Source of the DNA: Candidatus Frackibacter sp. WG13
Lineage (GTDB): Bacteria > Bacillota > Halanaerobiia > Halobacteroidales > Acetohalobiaceae
Assembly (NCBI RefSeq): GCF_900114655.1
Contig: NZ_FOTT01000009.1
Span: 1 to 64,000 of the forward strand
DNA length: 64,000 nucleotides
Direction: 5' to 3'
Positions 9,745 to 30,708 of this stretch are shown one piece after another (position 1 is the stretch's first letter; each line of letters begins with the position of its first letter). The notes under the pieces are model-generated. The model was not told the DNA's origin. It saw only the letters and a program-made list of their open reading frames with translations, and made no database searches. Both the position numbers and the translations under genes were made by a program.

Positions 9745-11147
9745 TAGTCTTCCTCCTCTAACAAAACCTTAAAATGAGAGACTATAAACGAAATTTCCTC
9801 TTCTTTAATAGTCCTAGGATCAATAATAACTTTTTCTGATTGAATCCTTGTGAATAAAGGAGGGTTTAGACCTCTTAGTCTACTACTTATTCTCTCTGCA
9901 GTTAAATTAGTAATCGAAATTTCAACTAAAAAGGTAGCTAAAGCCTCCGTAGGAAAGGCCCCACCTCCTACCTGTGAATACCCTTCTTTAACATCCACTT
10001 CCAAATCATCACCTAACTCTTCTAAATTGGCTGCTAATCTATCTGCTCTATCCTTTAGTACTTTCGAATCTAACGTTAACAATCGCAGAGTAGGTATCTT
10101 CTCTATGGCTGCCTCAAAGTCTAAGTAAAGCCGCAAGGTCTCTTCTAAGGCTGCTAATGTAAACTTATCAACCCGTAAAGCTCTAGTTAAAGGGTTCCTC
10201 TTCATCTGTTGAATATATTCTTTCTTTCCGATAATAATTCCGGCTTGTGGTCCCCCTAATAATTTATCACCACTAAATGTAACTACATCAACACCGGTTT
10301 CTATACTCTCTTGAACCGTTGGTTCTGAGCTGAAACCATACTTGCTAAAATCGATTAAAGTGCCGCTTCCTAAATCATCTAAAACCGGCAATCCATTATC
10401 ATGGCCTAACTCAACTAAATCTTGCAGAAGCACTTCTTTGGAAAAACCAACAATTCGATAATTACTAGTATGTGCTCTTAAGAGCAAGCCAGTCTCATCA
10501 GTCATCGCCGCTTCATAATCACGAAGGTGAGTCTTATTAGTAGCACCTACCTCTACTAAATCTGCGCCACTCTGTTCCATGACTTCTGGAATTCTAAATG
10601 AACCTCCAATCTCTACTAACTGTCCTCGAGAGATAATTACTTCTTTACCTTGTGCTAACGTGTTTAGTGCTAATAAGACTGCGCCAGCATTATTATTGAC
10701 TACTAAACAATCTTCAGCACCAGTTAAATAGACCAATAAATCAGTCACATGCTCATATCTTGAACCTCGTTCACCACTTTCAATATCCATTTCTAAAGTT
10801 GAGTAATTCTCAGCAACTTCAACTAAACGCTTCTGTGCTGATTCAGCTAATAATGAACGTCCTAAATTAGTATGTAATACGACCCCTGTTCCATTAATAA
10901 CTCGTTTAAGATTAGATTGTAGCCAAACTTTAAGCTTTCTATCTACTAATTCAACTACTCTATTTAAAGAAACCTCAAAATCAACTGGAAGTTCTTTATT
11001 ATCTAAAATTCTCTCTCTTAATTTCTGGTTAACATCCCTTATTGCATCTACAACTAATCTTCTAGAATAATCATCTAATATTTTTTTAATAGACTCCTCA
11101 TTCAAAACTCTATCCACAGCAGGAATCTGTCGTAAGTACTTCTCCAT
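9744..11147 (-). CDS. selA: L-seryl-tRNA(Sec) selenium transferase
   Basis: 467 residues. A pyridoxal-phosphate enzyme that converts Ser-tRNA-Sec to Sec-tRNA-Sec using selenophosphate. The PLP lysine is Lys295 in SGDKLLGGPQAG, the same position as in the E. coli enzyme. The N-terminal tRNA-binding region (IPAVDRVL) is present. The start has GGAGG nearby (AGAGGTGGAAGT). It heads the selA-selB-selC cluster. No selD is visible in the window, and no gene here needs Sec, so its clients lie elsewhere. Confidence 0.97.
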   Translation of the reverse strand: MEKYLRQIPAVDRVLNEESIKKILDDYSRRLVVDAIRDVNQKLRERILDNKELPVDFEVSLNRVVELVDRKLKVWLQSNLKRVINGTGVVLHTNLGRSLLAESAQKRLVEVAENYSTLEMDIESGERGSRYEHVTDLLVYLTGAEDCLVVNNNAGAVLLALNTLAQGKEVIISRGQLVEIGGSFRIPEVMEQSGADLVEVGATNKTHLRDYEAAMTDETGLLLRAHTSNYRIVGFSKEVLLQDLVELGHDNGLPVLDDLGSGTLIDFSKYGFSSEPTVQESIETGVDVVTFSGDKLLGGPQAGIIIGKKEYIQQMKRNPLTRALRVDKFTLAALEETLRLYLDFEAAIEKIPTLRLLTLDSKVLKDRADRLAANLEELGDDLEVDVKEGYSQVGGGAFPTEALATFLVEISITNLTAERISSRLRGLNPPLFTRIQSEKVIIDPRTIKEEEISFIVSHFKVLLEEED

Positions 11148-11256
11148 ACTTCCACCTCTAATTTTCTATATTTTAAACTTAATATATTTTCCACTACTTC
11201 CTTGACTAATATTCTTGATTAAAATTAATTTTCCTGCTATACCTATATATTAACAG

Positions 11257-11294
11257 ATAAAAAAATGTTGTGACCAATCTCGGCCACAACATTT
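11257..11294 (-). terminator. terminator after chemoreceptor gene
   Basis: AAATGTTGTG / CACAACATTT, ten pairs with a 12-base loop, followed by seven T on the minus strand. Confidence 0.9.
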
Positions 11295-11313
11295 CAGTAA
11301 AATCTTTAAACTT

Positions 11314-12873
11314 TTATATCTTAAACTGTTCCACCATTTTAGTCAATTCATTTGCTTCCTCAGCTAAGTTACTTGCTGTCTGCTTTATCTCTACCGACAT
11401 ATCTGCTATATTCTCGGTAGAAGTAACAACTTCGTCAGCCCCAGAAGCCATCTGTTCTGTAGCTGCACTTGTATCCTGAATCTGACCAATAGTTTCATTA
11501 ATTTCTTCATTAATCTCTTCAAAAGCTTCTCCAGCCTGCTGAATAATTTCTTCACCAACTGCTACTTCCTCCGCACCTTTTTCTATAGATTTAATAGCCT
11601 CATGAGATTCGTTCTGTGTCTCTCTAATTAAATCTGCTATATTATCAGTAGCCTTAGCAGTTTCTTCAGCTAAGTTTTGGATTTCTTCTGCTACTACTGC
11701 AAAACCACGACCGTGTTCTCCAGCTCTAGCAGCTTCTATAGCAGCATTTAAAGCTAATAAATTAGTCTGCTCAGCTATATCAGTTATTAATTGAATAATC
11801 TCACCAATCTCTTGTGATTTTTCACCTAGATTACGCATCACATTCGAAGTGCCTTCTACGGTTTTTCGAACAGCACTAATCTCTTCAATTGCCTTTTCTA
11901 CTGCTTCTTCTCCAACACCAACTGTACTAGCCATCCCTTCAGCAGAACCTGATACTACCTGAGCATTAGAAGCTATCTCTTGAACACTAGCAGATAATTG
12001 AGTTATACTAGCAGTAGTTGATTCAATATATTGATTCGACTGAGTAGTAGTTGCTGATAACTCTTCACTAGAACTAGTTACTACCTGGGCTGCATCTTTA
12101 ACACTTTTAATCATTTCTGCCTGTTTAGTAACCATATTGTTAAAAGAGGTACCTAAAATCCCTAATTCATCATCACGATCAGCACAACCGACTCTGGATG
12201 TTAAATCTCCGCCTTCTGTCTTTCTCAAAGCATCAACCATCTGGTGGATTGGGTTAGTAATATTATTCGTTACAAAGACTGCCCCAGTCCCCATCAATGC
12301 CATAGCTATAATACAAGTAATAATCATCGTCCAAGCAACATTCGTACTAAAACGTGTCATATTATCAATTCGATCAGCAACGAATATATACCATCCTGAT
12401 TTAGGATTATACTCGTAAGTAGCAAACATATTTTTACCATCAACTTGATACTCTATCTTTCCGGATTCAGTACCTCGAATCTTCTCTGTAAAATCTAAAT
12501 TATCTTTTGCTACTTCACTTATTTCTCCTACTAATAATTCCCCTGATTTATCTATTATAAAAATAGACCCTGTATTTTTACTAAAATATTCTTCTTCACT
12601 CTTATTTACCTTTTGTTGTAATTTCATATTCGAATCAGGACTAGAAAGGTTAATAGTATTAACCTCATCAACAAGTTCAGACGCAATAATCTCTAACTTC
12701 TCAGTCGATAATGCTTTAAAACTATTATTGGCTGACTTATATGTAAAAACACCTAATAACACCAGCCCAATTAATCCTAATATTCCTGAAAAAATTAGCG
12801 TCTTTAATAACAAACGACTCTTAAATGACCTTTCAATATCAAGATCAAACATCTCCTTATCAATTAATCTCAT
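11314..12873 (-). CDS. methyl-accepting chemotaxis protein
   Basis: 519 residues. A membrane chemoreceptor. Membrane helix 1 is near residues 25-47; an extracellular Cache-like sensor (about 50-175, with [13 protein letters not shown] and [10 protein letters not shown]) follows; helix 2 is near 182-204; then HAMP (about 205-258) and a cytoplasmic coiled coil with the conserved hairpin tip [20 protein letters not shown]. The tip recruits CheA and CheW. No ligand can be inferred. No che genes lie nearby. It implies a motile cell. It is monocistronic, with a terminator after it. Confidence 0.95.
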
Positions 12874-25038: not shown

Positions 25039-25074
25039 AACCATCGAAAGTGTAAGTTTACACTTTCGATGGTT
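25039..25074 (-). terminator. terminator after nqrF
   Basis: AACCATCGAAAGTGTAA, two-base loop, and the exact complement; followed on the minus strand by TTTTTTACTTTT. Confidence 0.92.
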
Positions 25075-25087
25075 AGAGATTGTTATT

Positions 25088-26182
25088 CTAGAACTTATCA
25101 AACATTACCTTTTCTGCTGGCATTCCGTGATCAACTAAGATGCGCTCTGCTGCATCGAGCATGACCGGTGGTCCACAGAGATATGATTCTGCATTCTCCA
25201 GTGACCCTTCCCTTTCATCTAATACATCAGTAACAAATCCGAAAGGCCCATCCCAGTTCTCTTTATCATCAGGAGTAGGGTCAGAAAGTGCAGGTATATA
25301 CTCAAAGTTATCATACTTCTCTTCAAGTTCTGCAAATCTATCTTCATAGTAAAGCTCATCTGAATTTCTGGCACCAAAGTAATATCTTGTCGGTCGAGGC
25401 ATTCCTAATTCATCTAAACGTTCAAGGATCCCTCTCATCGGTGCCATTCCAGCACCTCCTCCGATCAAGATAATCTCTCTATCGGATTCTTCATCGAGAT
25501 AGAAGTGACCGTAAGGCCCAGTGAACTTAACAGTATCCCCTTCCTCTAGAGCAAAGTGAATCCAACTAGTACAAAGGCCACCAGGTACTAATTTGATTGT
25601 AAACTGTAAAGCATTCTCGTCTCTAGCCATACTTGGTGGTGAAGCTATAGAGTAAGCTCGGAATACTTCAAAACCAGGAATCAGAAGCTGTGCATACTGC
25701 CCAGCTTTAAATTCAATTTCTGTTGGTTCTATCATTTTTAATCTAACATGCTTAACTGTAGGAGTTACATCCTTTAATACCTCTACTTCAGCAGTATATT
25801 CCTGTACGTCAAGTAATTCTTGAGCAACTTCAATCTTCATATCCTCACTAACTTTAACCTGACAAGCTAGCCTTACTCCTCTTTCTTCTTCTTCTGGACT
25901 GATGAAAGCCTCTTCGGTAGGAAGCATCTCGCCTCCACCTTCCTTCACTTCAACCTTACAGTGACCACAAGCTGCTTTTCCACCACAAGCGGCTGGAATA
26001 TGAATCTCATTATCTGATAAGATATTTAAGAGATTACCAGAACCAGCAACTGGAATATATTCTTCATCATTAACAGTAATCATCATCTGTTCCTGACTAG
26101 TAAGAAGATAATCAGCAATAGCCAGTACAGCTGCAACTCCAACGAAAATCGATGCTAATACATAAATTGGTTGTAGATTCAT
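25088..26182 (-). CDS. nqrF: Na+-translocating NADH:quinone reductase subunit F
   Basis: 364 residues. NADH entry subunit of Na+-NQR. N-terminal membrane helix (about 5-25), [2Fe-2S] ferredoxin with CGGKAACGHC and a fourth Cys in LACQV, then the ferredoxin-NADP-reductase module: FAD site FRAYSIASPP, NADH site GGGAGMAPMRGIL, C-terminal FDKF. Its presence, in place of an RnfB, marks the operon as Nqr. The gene starts directly after the nqrE stop. Confidence 0.95.
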   Translation of the reverse strand: MNLQPIYVLASIFVGVAAVLAIADYLLTSQEQMMITVNDEEYIPVAGSGNLLNILSDNEIHIPAACGGKAACGHCKVEVKEGGGEMLPTEEAFISPEEEERGVRLACQVKVSEDMKIEVAQELLDVQEYTAEVEVLKDVTPTVKHVRLKMIEPTEIEFKAGQYAQLLIPGFEVFRAYSIASPPSMARDENALQFTIKLVPGGLCTSWIHFALEEGDTVKFTGPYGHFYLDEESDREIILIGGGAGMAPMRGILERLDELGMPRPTRYYFGARNSDELYYEDRFAELEEKYDNFEYIPALSDPTPDDKENWDGPFGFVTDVLDEREGSLENAESYLCGPPVMLDAAERILVDHGMPAEKVMFDKF

Positions 26183-26767
26183 TTAGACATTCACCATCCC
26201 CCCGAAGCCCATAAAACCAAGGGCTAAAATACCAAGAATCACCATTACAATACCAGGTCCTTTCAGACCTTTTGGTATATCTCCAACTAATTCAAGCTTC
26301 TCTCTTATAGCAGCAACAATAGCAATTGCTACTAACCAACCCATTGATGAACCAAATGCAAAAACAAGTGTTGTTCCAAATGTATAGTTACGTAAAACCA
26401 TAAATAAGGATACAGAAAGTACAACACAGTTTACCGTAATAAGCGGTAAGAAGATTCCAAAAGCTCTATATAGAGCTGGAAGGAACTTCTCTAAAATCAT
26501 CTCTAAAAGCTGTACACTTGCTCCTATTGTTACAATAAATATAACATACGTTAAAATTGTACTATTCGTAGGTATCAAAATCAGATTATATATCGGCCAG
26601 TTAATTATAGCAGTCAGCATTACAACGAACGTTACTGACATTCCCATACCAACAGCCGTATTAAGGTTCTTTGATACCCCAATCATCGGACACATCCCAA
26701 GAATATAAGTCAATGCAATATTATGAGATGTAATCGTTGCTATAAAAATACTCAGAGATTCAGGCAT
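26183..26767 (-). CDS. nqrE: Na+-translocating NADH:quinone reductase subunit E
   Basis: 194 residues, six membrane helices. NqrE and NqrD form an inverted pseudo-symmetric pair that binds an intramembrane iron-sulfur centre through conserved cysteines, here YILGMCPMIG and ITVNCVVLS. RnfA is the homologue in Rnf complexes. Starts 66 bases after nqrD with AGGAGAAG as ribosome site. Confidence 0.94.
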   Translation of the reverse strand: MPESLSIFIATITSHNIALTYILGMCPMIGVSKNLNTAVGMGMSVTFVVMLTAIINWPIYNLILIPTNSTILTYVIFIVTIGASVQLLEMILEKFLPALYRAFGIFLPLITVNCVVLSVSLFMVLRNYTFGTTLVFAFGSSMGWLVAIAIVAAIREKLELVGDIPKGLKGPGIVMVILGILALGFMGFGGMVNV

Positions 26768-26833: not shown

Positions 26834-27529
26834 TTATGCTGCTTCTGATAATAAATCCTCAGAAGTCTCAAGAGTAGCTCGACTATTCTTTGTATCGCCT
26901 TCCTCTTCTTCAAATATCTGACGTTCACGAACAGCCCAGGTTAATACTGCTAACAAGAAGAAACCACCTGGTGCCATAGCCATTACTACCCATTTTGTAA
27001 ATCCTTCTCCAACAACACTAACGCCCATTAACGTTCCAAAGGCAAGTACCTCTCTTATTACAGAGATTATAATTAAAACGATAGTATAACCCATACCATG
27101 AGCAAAACCATCCATTATCGAAAACTTAGCTGGATTCTTAGTAGCAAAGGCTTCCGCTCGTCCCATGATTAAACAGTTAGTTATAATCAAGGCAACGTAA
27201 GGACCTAAAGCCCGACTGATACTTGGATAAAAAGCTTTAAAGAACTGGTCTACTACAACTACAAATGCTGAAATCAAAATTACATAGGTAACTATTCTGA
27301 CACGATTTGGAATATACTTTTTAATCAATGAGGTAAGAACTGATGAAACCATTACAACAAAAGTAACCGCTAACCCCATAGCAATTCCATTTACTACTCT
27401 ATTAGTTACCGCTAACGCAGAGCAGATACCTAGTGCTGATAAAAGAACCGGGTTTTCAGACCAAATTCCGTCATACATAAGCGCAAATGGCTTAGTATAT
27501 TTAAACTTATAGTATAGCTTCTTTAACAT
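26834..27529 (-). CDS. nqrD: Na+-translocating NADH:quinone reductase subunit D
   Basis: 231 residues, six membrane helices, homologue of RnfE. Conserved cysteines in SALGICSALAVTN and IITNCLIMGRAEAFA. A hydrophilic acidic tail (EEEEGDTKNS) of about 25 residues extends past the usual end. One base separates it from nqrC. Confidence 0.94.
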   Translation of the reverse strand: MLKKLYYKFKYTKPFALMYDGIWSENPVLLSALGICSALAVTNRVVNGIAMGLAVTFVVMVSSVLTSLIKKYIPNRVRIVTYVILISAFVVVVDQFFKAFYPSISRALGPYVALIITNCLIMGRAEAFATKNPAKFSIMDGFAHGMGYTIVLIIISVIREVLAFGTLMGVSVVGEGFTKWVVMAMAPGGFFLLAVLTWAVRERQIFEEEEGDTKNSRATLETSEDLLSEAA

Positions 27530-27530
27530 C

Positions 27531-28160
27531 TTACTTCACCTCCAATTGCTTCAGGGCTTCATCAATATTGTTATTTAATATTTTCTGGAGAGCTTTCCCA
27601 GATAAAGTTGCCCCAGCAATTCCATCTACTTCATTAGGTTTATCAGGAGACTTACTTGCTTTAAGAACTACAAGTTTTGGTTTATAATCTAAGTTCTTAA
27701 ATTGATTAAGGAACCATGCTTCTTTAATTCTTCCACCAAGTCCAGGCGTCTCTCCCTGTGACATGATAGAAACTCCTTTTAAAGTCTTCATATCAGAATT
27801 AAATGCTATAAACCCAGTAATAGGTGCCCATAACCCTTTCCCTTCAAACATAAAGGCAATATCTCCATTACTAGTCTTATAAAATTTCTGTCCACCTTTT
27901 TCTACAACTTTAATCTTTTCCTTATAAACCTGTGCCATATTATCCTTTGTATAACTGATAGCAAAGGAATCGAGAACCTTTTGCATCTTTCTAAGTTTCT
28001 GATTCTTCTGTACAATAGGCTTCGTATAAGTACTCAGCCCTACTAACATACCCGATACAACTAAACCAATAATTAACATAAAGATTACCATCTTCGCCTT
28101 ATCCAACAGAATATCCTTAGTTGTAATCTCCGGTTGTTCTAAATTAGTATTAGTTTTCAT
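27531..28160 (-). CDS. nqrC: Na+-translocating NADH:quinone reductase subunit C
   Basis: 209 residues. One N-terminal membrane helix (about 28-48) and an extracytoplasmic flavin domain. The flavinylation motif is DGIAGATLSG with Thr185 as the residue that takes FMN, attached by ApbE (no apbE in this window). RnfG homologue. Overlaps nqrB by 11 bases. Confidence 0.94.
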   Translation of the reverse strand: MKTNTNLEQPEITTKDILLDKAKMVIFMLIIGLVVSGMLVGLSTYTKPIVQKNQKLRKMQKVLDSFAISYTKDNMAQVYKEKIKVVEKGGQKFYKTSNGDIAFMFEGKGLWAPITGFIAFNSDMKTLKGVSIMSQGETPGLGGRIKEAWFLNQFKNLDYKPKLVVLKASKSPDKPNEVDGIAGATLSGKALQKILNNNIDEALKQLEVK

Positions 28161-29250
28161 TGTAAACTACCCCATCATTTCTTGGTTTGAATTTTGCGTT
28201 TAGAATAACGCTATCAATTAAAGGTGTGATTGAGTTAGCTAATAATATACTGAACATTACACCCTCAACATAACCACCAAACGTTCTAAATAGCAGGGTC
28301 AAGAGACCAGCAAAGATACCAAATATCCACATTCCACTCTTTGTGAAAGGAGAAGTTACCGGGTCAGTCGCCATAAAGAAGGCCCCAAATAATAAACCTC
28401 CTGTAAGAATCTGATACATTGGCGGTGCAACCTGCGGTAAAAACTGATTTCCAATAGCAGATAAAACAAATACCGAACCTATATAAGCCACTGGAATTCT
28501 CCAGTTTATTATCTTAGTAATAATTAAGAATATACCTCCAAGAATTATTCCAATACGGAATGTTTCTCCCATAGAACCTCCGACAGCACCAAATAAAAGT
28601 TCAGAATAGGAAGTGCTTTTAGTAAGAGCTTCTACACCTCCGGTCTTAAGAACAGCTAATGGAGTTGCTGACGTAATTGCATCCGCTGGGATTGCATAGT
28701 TAAATAATCTTCCTAATCCTTCAGTCACTGGTTTTGCCCATTTTGTACTCATAGTGACTGGAAAAGCAATCGAAAGGAATACACGACCTACGATGGCCGG
28801 GTTAAATACATTTCGCCCTGTCCCTCCAAAAACTTCCTTACCAAAGAAAACACCAAAAAACGATCCTACTGCTACCATCCAAAGTGGAATTGTTGGTGGC
28901 AAAACTAGTGGAAAAATAAGTCCAGTAACTAGAAAACCTTCATGAATATCATGTTTTCTAATCATAGCAAATAATACTTCTGTTATTACACCAGCCATAT
29001 AAGAAACTAAAATAATAGATAAAGCACGCCAACCATAAAAATAAATCGCTGCAAAAGTACTCGGTAATAAAGCTAAAATTACCATAGTCATATATCTCTT
29101 AGTGTCATTCTTGTCTACAATATGTGGTGCAGACGTAGTAACCTCTTCAGGCCCGAAAAAGATATTATCTACTGCTTCAATTGCGGGCTTGAAGGCGCTT
29201 AATGATTCATTATTCTTTAAATTATCAAAAAGACCACGAAGTCCGTTCAT
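28150..29250 (-). CDS. nqrB: Na+-translocating NADH:quinone reductase subunit B
   Basis: 366 residues, about ten membrane helices; forms much of the Na+ path. FMN-accepting threonine is Thr196 in AITSATPLAVL. GRNVFNPAIVGRVFLS and FFMATDPVTSPFT are family motifs. Homologue of RnfD; slightly shorter than the Vibrio protein. Follows nqrA by 54 bases. Confidence 0.93.
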   Translation of the reverse strand: MNGLRGLFDNLKNNESLSAFKPAIEAVDNIFFGPEEVTTSAPHIVDKNDTKRYMTMVILALLPSTFAAIYFYGWRALSIILVSYMAGVITEVLFAMIRKHDIHEGFLVTGLIFPLVLPPTIPLWMVAVGSFFGVFFGKEVFGGTGRNVFNPAIVGRVFLSIAFPVTMSTKWAKPVTEGLGRLFNYAIPADAITSATPLAVLKTGGVEALTKSTSYSELLFGAVGGSMGETFRIGIILGGIFLIITKIINWRIPVAYIGSVFVLSAIGNQFLPQVAPPMYQILTGGLLFGAFFMATDPVTSPFTKSGMWIFGIFAGLLTLLFRTFGGYVEGVMFSILLANSITPLIDSVILNAKFKPRNDGVVYNEN

Positions 29251-29304: not shown

Positions 29305-30708
29305 TTACTTAACTGCATAACCTTTGTTCATTAAGAACTGCTTTCCTTGCTTGATGTGCTTTCCTAAAGGTCTTTTGGACGGACATACAAAAGTACATAA
29401 ATTACATTCTACACAATCAAAAATACCATATCTAATTAATTCATCATCTACATTGCTCTTTGCTGTATACTGTTCAACAAGATGTGGGAATATATCGACT
29501 GGACAAGCCTGTTCACAATAGCCACAAGAAATACAAGGTCTTTCTTCTCCGTGAACATTAGTGTCACAATTACTACTTAAATTAGAGAACAGAGCTGAAA
29601 GAAAAGCATTTGAATAAGAAGCCCTCTTTGCTCCTGGACGTACGAATGCGAATACTTCACGCCCCTCACCTTCCGGTACTGCACTTAAATTATCAAATTC
29701 ACGAGTGACCGGATACTTATAACTTGTAACTGCTTGGTCCGCTAATATATTACCAGAAACAATTCTGTAGTTACCATTATTTAAACATTTATTTGTAATA
29801 GCCTCTACAGGAGTCCCCACTCTCACTTTAACATGAAGGTTTTCTTTCCAACCTTCTCCAGATAATGATACTAGACGTTCTATTAATGGTTTCCCTTCTA
29901 CTACAGCATCATAAGCATGCAGAATAGTCTGCATTTTAAATACAATTACACCCAGCTTTGTTGCTGAACCTCCAACTGTATATTCTTTGCCAAGAATAGT
30001 CGGAATTAATACTTTATCGCTACCCTGAGGATACTTAGGCTCAACGCTATATAACTGAACCCAGTTATTACTCCCAACTAAATTACTCAATTCTTTAATT
30101 AAATTCTGACGGTTCTTATTAATAGCTACATGCACTTTAGCTTGTGGTAATATCTTATGCAGAATTTTTAAACCATCAGCAAATTGAGATAACTTACCAT
30201 CTTGTAAAAGAGCTGATAATGATAAGTTATAAGGATCAGACTCTACTCCCTTAATAATTACATGTTTTACATCATCTGTAGAGATCGACGAGCTTTGATA
30301 TCTGGTCGGTATTCCTTGATTATCTAAGGAAGTAACTCCAGAATTGTAAAGCAATTCTTCAATCTTTTCGGCTGACATACTAGTCCAATCTGAACCATGC
30401 CCTTCTACTGGCTGCCAATCAGATGTGCCATCAGCTTCTATAATAATTGCTTTACTAGTAACCTCTTTTACTGTCCCATTAACACTTGCCTGTACTGGAG
30501 TAGATTCAGAGTTATCACTTTTACCAATAATCTGACCAGCCTTTACTTCTTCACCTGGCTCGACCGTTGGTTCTACTACCTGACCAAAACCCTGTTTTAA
30601 TGGGATGCAAACTTGTGAAGGGATTTCTAGCTCAACGACTTTATCCTGAGGTTTACCTTCAAGATTAAATACATAGCCTCCAGAAAATGAATTATTTTTA
30701 ACTTTCAT
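29305..30708 (-). CDS. nqrA: NqrA-like subunit retaining two RnfC-type [4Fe-4S] motifs
   Basis: 467 residues. The N-terminal barrel-sandwich domain (IPLKQGFGQVVEPTVEPG) and middle region follow the NqrA/RnfC pattern. The NADH/FMN glycine motif of RnfC (GxGGAGFPT) is degenerate (SGVTSLDNQGIPT), as in NqrA. Unlike Vibrio NqrA, two full cluster motifs remain: Cys392, 395, 398, 402 and Cys432, 435, 438, 442 with RnfC-like SKRPLGKH. With NqrF at the operon end this looks like an intermediate between Rnf and Nqr. First gene of nqrABCDEF. Confidence 0.85.
   Translation of the reverse strand: MKVKNNSFSGGYVFNLEGKPQDKVVELEIPSQVCIPLKQGFGQVVEPTVEPGEEVKAGQIIGKSDNSESTPVQASVNGTVKEVTSKAIIIEADGTSDWQPVEGHGSDWTSMSAEKIEELLYNSGVTSLDNQGIPTRYQSSSISTDDVKHVIIKGVESDPYNLSLSALLQDGKLSQFADGLKILHKILPQAKVHVAINKNRQNLIKELSNLVGSNNWVQLYSVEPKYPQGSDKVLIPTILGKEYTVGGSATKLGVIVFKMQTILHAYDAVVEGKPLIERLVSLSGEGWKENLHVKVRVGTPVEAITNKCLNNGNYRIVSGNILADQAVTSYKYPVTREFDNLSAVPEGEGREVFAFVRPGAKRASYSNAFLSALFSNLSSNCDTNVHGEERPCISCGYCEQACPVDIFPHLVEQYTAKSNVDDELIRYGIFDCVECNLCTFVCPSKRPLGKHIKQGKQFLMNKGYAVK

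Follow-up and report, generated by a model that had tools for sequence, protein, structure and literature searches.

The locus described here raises the question of whether its six genes encode an RNF complex, an Na+-NQR or something between the two, and by which route electrons entering it would leave. In the known NQRs, NqrA has neither a cofactor nor an assigned function, according to the relevant part of a 2025 review (PMC12174285). The part of a 2014 study concerned with their origin derives NQR from a duplication of rnf in Chlorobi/Bacteroidetes, in a scenario in which rnfB was lost, RnfC lost its NAD, FMN and cluster sites and nqrF was recruited next; the same part states that the Firmicutes named there do not harbour nqr (PMC4014512). 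In the available portions of the open-licence PMC literature we came across no description of an NqrA that bears clusters, nor of an nqr operon in the hosts considered here.

The window, a stretch of 64,000 nucleotides on contig 29 of the 2.77-Mb genome of Candidatus Frackibacter sp. WG13, contains a gene for which an initial annotation, made from the letters alone, proposed a Rnf–Nqr intermediate. The operon to which this gene belongs is, on evidence that supports the identification well, an early-diverging variant of NQR, termed FeS-NQR here, and not an RNF. Its NqrA still has both iron-sulfur sites of the presumed Rnf ancestor, and with it the origin of the Nqr pump becomes testable.

Organization of the operon and its host genome

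The NqrA/RnfC homologue, of 467 aa, is the ORF at 29305-30708 on the minus strand of the window, and opens a tightly packed operon of six genes, nqrA-B-C-D-E-F, on that strand:

29305..30708, minus strand: nqrA (FeS type), 467 aa, homologous to RnfC and NqrA, both [4Fe-4S] motifs complete
28150..29250, minus strand: nqrB, 366 aa, with an NqrB-like N-terminal arm and a flavin-threonine motif (DAITSAT)
27531..28160, minus strand: nqrC, 209 aa, with an FMN-binding domain (DGIAGAT)
26834..27529, minus strand: nqrD, 231 aa, carrying intramembrane [2Fe-2S] cysteines
26183..26767, minus strand: nqrE, 194 aa, carrying intramembrane [2Fe-2S] cysteines
25088..26182, minus strand: nqrF, 364 aa, with an N-terminal hydrophobic segment, [2Fe-2S], FAD and NADH domains
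25039..25074, minus strand: terminator-like hairpin closing the operon, a 16-pair stem and then a T-run (terminator-like sites: 5 found, 3.4 expected)

All six products match RNF/NQR families in Pfam and NCBIfam, and these matches, with the gene order, bear out the earlier statement that the operon ends with nqrF and has no rnfB. The window NqrA passes the NCBIfam rnfC model (TIGR01945; 257.6, cut-off 245.95) and lies far below the cut-off for nqrA (150 bits against 321), its match to the nqrA model being one continuous stretch from residue 11 to residue 460. The other subunits are also under the cut-offs of the NCBIfam nqr equivalog models (nqrF 281.7 vs 295, nqrB 301.5 vs 349.9, nqrC 95 vs 144, nqrD 207 vs 245 and nqrE 189 vs 248), and a cut-off-based annotation pipeline would probably call the window NqrA an RnfC.

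An rnfB of the host genome sits in a separate rnf operon, which is complete and canonical (rnfCDGEAB) and whose rnfC scores 557 bits; an rnfC of their own is likewise found in genomes G002 and G004, the latter, which also carries the FeS-NQR operon, being taken as Acetohalobium arabaticum. The canonical rnf operon of the host is followed immediately by HdrB/HdrC-like genes, recognized by eye (L038:3333-4774).

Relatives and distribution

Profile searches found FeS-type NqrA in three of the 59 genomes of the host's class, in four of 398 genomes drawn from the phylum (those three included) and, in the class to which the fourth member belongs, in four of 97 genomes (the fourth included), giving a total of seven genomes with FeS-NQR in two classes and four families. 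All seven loci have the six genes nqrABCDEF in order. The cysteines of NqrF and of NqrDE and the FMN-threonine motif of NqrB are present in 7/7, and the NqrC motif and the nucleotide motif of NqrF take their usual form in 5/7, so that NADH should feed the usual core. Scans of genome contigs with the window protein and A1 gave no match and are uninformative on distribution, the patterns of one scan being N-terminal.

The operon is absent from two of the five genomes of the host family (G001 and G003), one of them of the same genus as Acetohalobium, which points to patchy loss or transfer. In G396 (L116:1767-4104 and 9859-11222) NuoE/NuoF-like (HydB-type) genes follow the operon, and ahead of it stand two small ORFs, of which one is NqrC/RnfG-like; in G515 (L122:2630-3640 and 10849-12764) a multihaem cytochrome-like gene with several CxxCH and apparent two-component genes, both recognized by eye, flank it. 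Elsewhere, in G006 (L041:5387-7726), rnfC has beside it a pair of neighbouring rnfD-like ORFs that are equally long.

Scans of viral contigs returned only RnfC-like stretches, on two contigs. RnfC-like genes also occur in 14 phage-labelled records (H115-H119), 12 of which are named only 'Bacteriophage', and may represent bacterial contamination; the first such record is from human faeces.

Conservation of the cluster motifs

The translated ORF has cysteines at positions 392, 395, 398 and 402 and at 432, 435, 438 and 442, which make up two CxxCxxCxxxCP motifs, both complete, as first described:

29500..29535, minus strand: cluster motif 1, residues 392-403 (CISCGYCEQACP), its four cysteines present in 7/7 homologues
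29380..29415, minus strand: cluster motif 2, residues 432-443 (CVECNLCTFVCP), its four cysteines present in 7/7 homologues

The cysteines are conserved in close relatives, all 56 motif positions being kept in the seven FeS-NqrAs, as against 11 of 56 in seven canonical NqrAs. The latter, which come from two phyla, have no cysteine in motif 1 and retain C438 in 6/7 and C442 in 5/7, in agreement with the earlier remark that Vibrio-type NqrA keeps a relic of the second motif only. Pairwise identity among the FeS-NqrAs is 47-71%, and 106 alignment columns are invariant in the seven homologues (the window protein having 467 residues); as the eight motif cysteines, and a ninth cysteine, C381, are all among these columns, chance is not an explanation. 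The remaining cysteines of the window protein, at 34 and 308, are missing from its two nearest homologues. The best-conserved stretch in three family members is the region of cluster 2 (residues 426-467, 90-93% identity), and a stretch of the type LIRYGIFxCxECNLC around cluster 2 is conserved in the FeS-NqrAs. An AlphaFold2 prediction of the window NqrA from a three-row alignment had a mean pLDDT of 49 and left the C-terminal cluster domain unmodelled.

The flavin loop and the NqrB-docking segment

We take the GxGGAxFPT/AECEPY region of RnfC to be that which binds FMN and NAD, from its motifs; the flavin region matches the FMN domain of the 51-kDa subunit of complex I (Pfam PF01512), consistent with an FMN site. 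Conservation was scored over columns at which 39 or more of the 41 RnfCs agree, with proteins longer than 600 aa cut to their first 470 residues and a Pdu-type RnfC relative of Ilyobacter left out; in this scoring the cysteines are present in 40/41 RnfCs, as against 41/41 in another alignment, the cutting being the likely reason. In the flavin/NAD region (RnfC residues 133-178), 15 columns are invariant or nearly so in the 41 RnfCs, and of the 105 corresponding cells 35 are kept in the FeS-NqrAs and 21 in canonical NqrAs. At the other scored columns FeS-NqrA keeps 151/231 cells and canonical NqrA 123/231. The loop itself (GxGGAxFPT and the AECEPY region) is not intact in the window NqrA, and the degenerate glycine motif noted at the outset is borne out. 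In its place stands a different loop, mostly conserved in 6/7 FeS-NqrAs, with the sequence GVTSLDNQGIPTR in the window protein:

30295..30339, minus strand: loop in remodelled form, residues 124-138 (GVTSLDNQGIPTRYQ), where RnfC has GxGGAxFPT

As judged by these motifs, the cluster sites of FeS-NqrA are wholly kept and its flavin site is largely gone. Residues Phe131-Lys138 of Vibrio cholerae NqrA align with the flavin loop of RnfC, and hence with window residues 124-138; in the V. cholerae enzyme the quinone head labels NqrA at Leu32-Met39 and Phe131-Lys138, as reported in the relevant part of a study of that enzyme (PMC9325719).

A second feature of NqrA type lies immediately before the first cluster motif:

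29536..29676, minus strand: segment of NqrA type, residues 345-391, for the most part lacking in RnfC, with C381

This segment has 47 residues in five of the seven FeS-NqrAs and 34 and 37 in the other two; elsewhere it has 46-48 residues in seven NqrAs and 12-13 in the three RnfCs examined. In V. cholerae, Arg330-Asn379 of NqrA intertwines with the N-terminus of NqrB, and its hydrophobic part would enter the membrane, according to the same part of that study (PMC9325719). The window NqrB has an N-terminal arm of the NqrB type, the counterpart of this docking segment.

Phylogenetic position

In a tree of the core subunits (B, D and E; 30 rows), FeS-NQR forms a single clade (100/99), and FeS-NQR, canonical NQR and an operon from Ilyobacter are joined at 100/100, apart from 15 RNFs (100/100). 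Smaller core trees of 25 and 26 rows agree. Rows lacking B, D or E were excluded, as were short-locus RNF rows of the class from the 26- and 30-row trees; Vibrio campbellii, from whose stretch only NqrB was recovered, is absent, and over-long D and E reading frames were trimmed at the N-terminus. The sample of canonical NQR covers seven genera from two phyla, Bacteroidota and Proteobacteria; a sister group of these sampled NQRs is placed in Bacillota.

The tree of the A subunit has NqrA (100/100) and RnfC (100/99) on either side and FeS-NqrA between them, the seven FeS-NqrAs forming one weakly supported clade (88/79) with long branches flagged; a first quick tree of 51 rows agrees with the later, more careful ones. 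The later A trees used 16 of the 41 RnfCs; in the A trees generally, proteins longer than 600 aa were cut to the first 470 residues and the Pdu-type Ilyobacter relative was absent. The G496 protein was trimmed of 45 N-terminal residues ahead of its likely start. Long-branch warnings were given for several trees.

Rooting the D/E tree on the paralogue left the nesting ambiguous, NQR with FeS-NQR lying inside RNF in the D half and as its sister in the E half. In the D half, the RnfE of Gemmatirosa (L059) attaches on the NQR side (100/97), yet the Gemmatirosa core, taken whole, falls with RNF. In a tree of NqrF with monooxygenase reductases, from which an FNR-like row of Persicobacter was dropped, the outgroups are very long and the tree does not fix the sequence in which FeS-NQR, Ilyobacter and canonical NqrF branch.

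With canonical Na+-NQR (V. cholerae, Bacteroidota, Proteobacteria), FeS-NQR shares the six-gene order, the NqrF input module, the NqrB arm, the NqrA docking segment and a core in one clade; it differs in the two [4Fe-4S] motifs of NqrA, intact by sequence, in its shorter NqrF, NqrC and NqrB, the two insertions of canonical NqrF having no counterpart in the window NqrF, and in its hosts, which are related to A. arabaticum (Firmicutes/Bacillota). With RNF (rnfCDGEAB; Clostridium tetanomorphum, Acetobacterium woodii) it shares an RnfC-like A subunit with both [4Fe-4S] motifs and a homologous core, but it has nqrF in place of rnfB, the FMN/NAD loop of RnfC is largely lost and the core branches with NQR. 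The nqrBCDEF-like operon on a plasmid of Ilyobacter polytropus has a core between FeS-NQR and canonical NQR and an NqrF of the same short type, 41% identical to that of the window, whereas it contains no RnfC/NqrA gene and its B subunit lacks the N-terminal arm. This operon (pILYOP01, L105:5141-8996) may be an NqrA-free NQR; only the plasmid was examined.

The trees, the shared insertions and the conservation of the cysteines together support the initial description: at the molecular level, FeS-NqrA is intermediate between RnfC and NqrA. In the strict sense FeS-NQR is a living, early-diverging relative of NQR and not its ancestor.

Quinone genes in the host family

The host genome has menaquinone-type genes in an mqn-type cluster (L098:4618-13170) encoding a menaquinone-type UbiD decarboxylase, an MqnP-like prenyltransferase, MqnE, MqnA (PF02621) and MqnC, together with a deaminase-like gene and UbiX. 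Genes for ubiA, mqnA and apbE, the last also among the genes of interest at the outset, are present in all five genomes of the family. We did not find mqnD in these five genomes, each having a single PF02621 gene (mqnA), and by sequence mqnD appears to be missing or replaced. MenD was above its cut-off in none of the five, an NrfD-type quinone enzyme was found in none, and for the flavoprotein of fumarate reductase there were only relatives below the cut-off. Two of the genomes (G001 and G003) have the quinone genes without FeS-NQR, and the distributions of the two are thus not coupled. For A. arabaticum, the relevant part of a 2021 review lists Rnf, uncharacterized quinone genes and no cytochromes (PMC8578096).

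Proposed electron path and alternatives

We give slightly better than an even chance to the reading that FeS-NQR is an intact redox pump of the Na+-NQR type, in which the clusters of NqrA serve as a wire, a quinone is the most likely acceptor and canonical NqrA represents a later state. NqrF, with FAD and [2Fe-2S], would oxidize NADH, and electrons would then cross the [2Fe-2S] of NqrDE, the FMNs covalently bound to NqrC and NqrB and, in NqrB, riboflavin, as in NQR and RNF. The output subunit would differ, in that the two [4Fe-4S] clusters of NqrA, kept from RnfC and predicted from their motifs to be assembled and redox-active, would wire riboflavin into NqrA. In RnfC, electrons pass from riboflavin to cluster 2 (11.7 Å), cluster 1, FMN and NAD+, according to the pertinent part of one paper (PMC9588780), and part of a second gives a similar order for RNF (PMC11889175). 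The FMN/NAD+ site of RnfC would have been rebuilt, the old pocket becoming a quinone pocket while the clusters still led there, and the acceptor would most likely be a menaquinone-type quinone, its head lodged in the rebuilt pocket or close to it. In the later state represented by canonical NqrA, quinone would be reduced straight from NqrB and the clusters would have decayed. The presence of nqrF with a largely lost flavin loop and clusters retained under strong constraint suggests that nqrF recruitment and loss of the flavin site came before loss of the clusters. For acetogens such as A. arabaticum, FeS-NQR, with Na+ pumping predicted, is a candidate NADH-to-quinone pump, and it is an enzyme in which the role of NqrA becomes assayable, by metal content and point mutation.

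Alternatively, the clusters might feed a soluble, docked carrier (ferredoxin, flavodoxin or a different protein) in place of quinone, making FeS-NQR an enzyme that passes electrons from NADH to a low-potential carrier, driven by or coupled to the Na+ gradient. The hosts are strict anaerobes with ferredoxin metabolism, the clusters are conserved where the FMN/NAD site is largely gone, and the conserved LIRYGIFxCxECNLC-type stretch could be read in the same way. Yet a complete rnf for the NADH/ferredoxin couple is already present in the same genome, no dedicated acceptor gene is conserved beside the operon among the loci read, and NqrB keeps its N-terminal arm; we consider a soluble acceptor unlikely, and the early suggestion that it might be ferredoxin found no support.

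It is rather improbable, in our estimate, that the clusters are assembled but lie off the main path, in a structural or redox-sensing role, with quinone reduced at NqrB in the V. cholerae manner. Canonical NQR does function with a cofactor-free NqrA (the part cited of PMC12174285), and the conserved NqrB arm is compatible with this arrangement, but a structural role fits poorly with 56/56 canonically spaced cysteines where two-thirds of the flavin-loop columns are lost. Equally doubtful is the reading of FeS-NQR as a Na+ pump of a class of its own, with a second acceptor served by the two NqrA clusters: quinone, at NqrB, and a low-potential protein, at NqrA, would both receive, or share, the electrons of NADH. 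Canonical NQR would on this reading be a simplified descendant, and NQR would then have its origin, or a very early foothold, in Bacillota, in place of a first origin in Bacteroidota.

That the protein is an RnfC of a diverged RNF, in which nqrF took the place of rnfB once the host's rnf had recently been duplicated, is very improbable. The window NqrA is indeed above the rnfC cut-off, and most of its segments are closer to RnfC than to NqrA in raw identity; however, the core sides with NQR, the NqrA-type segment is present and the flavin loop is largely lost. A recent duplication is rejected under the model used, grouping of the window NqrA with the host RnfCs having an AU p of 7e-5 and with those of the class a p of 8e-5. 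A mosaic formed by recombination between nqrA and rnfC genes, to which the position of the NqrA-like segment 345-391 between RnfC-like stretches might point, is just as improbable and was rejected, since the core subunits tell the same story as the A subunit and no block stands out by its closeness to NqrA or RnfC, mean identities per block being 14-28% to NqrA (nine blocks) and 19-38% to RnfC (the eight blocks that RnfC has).
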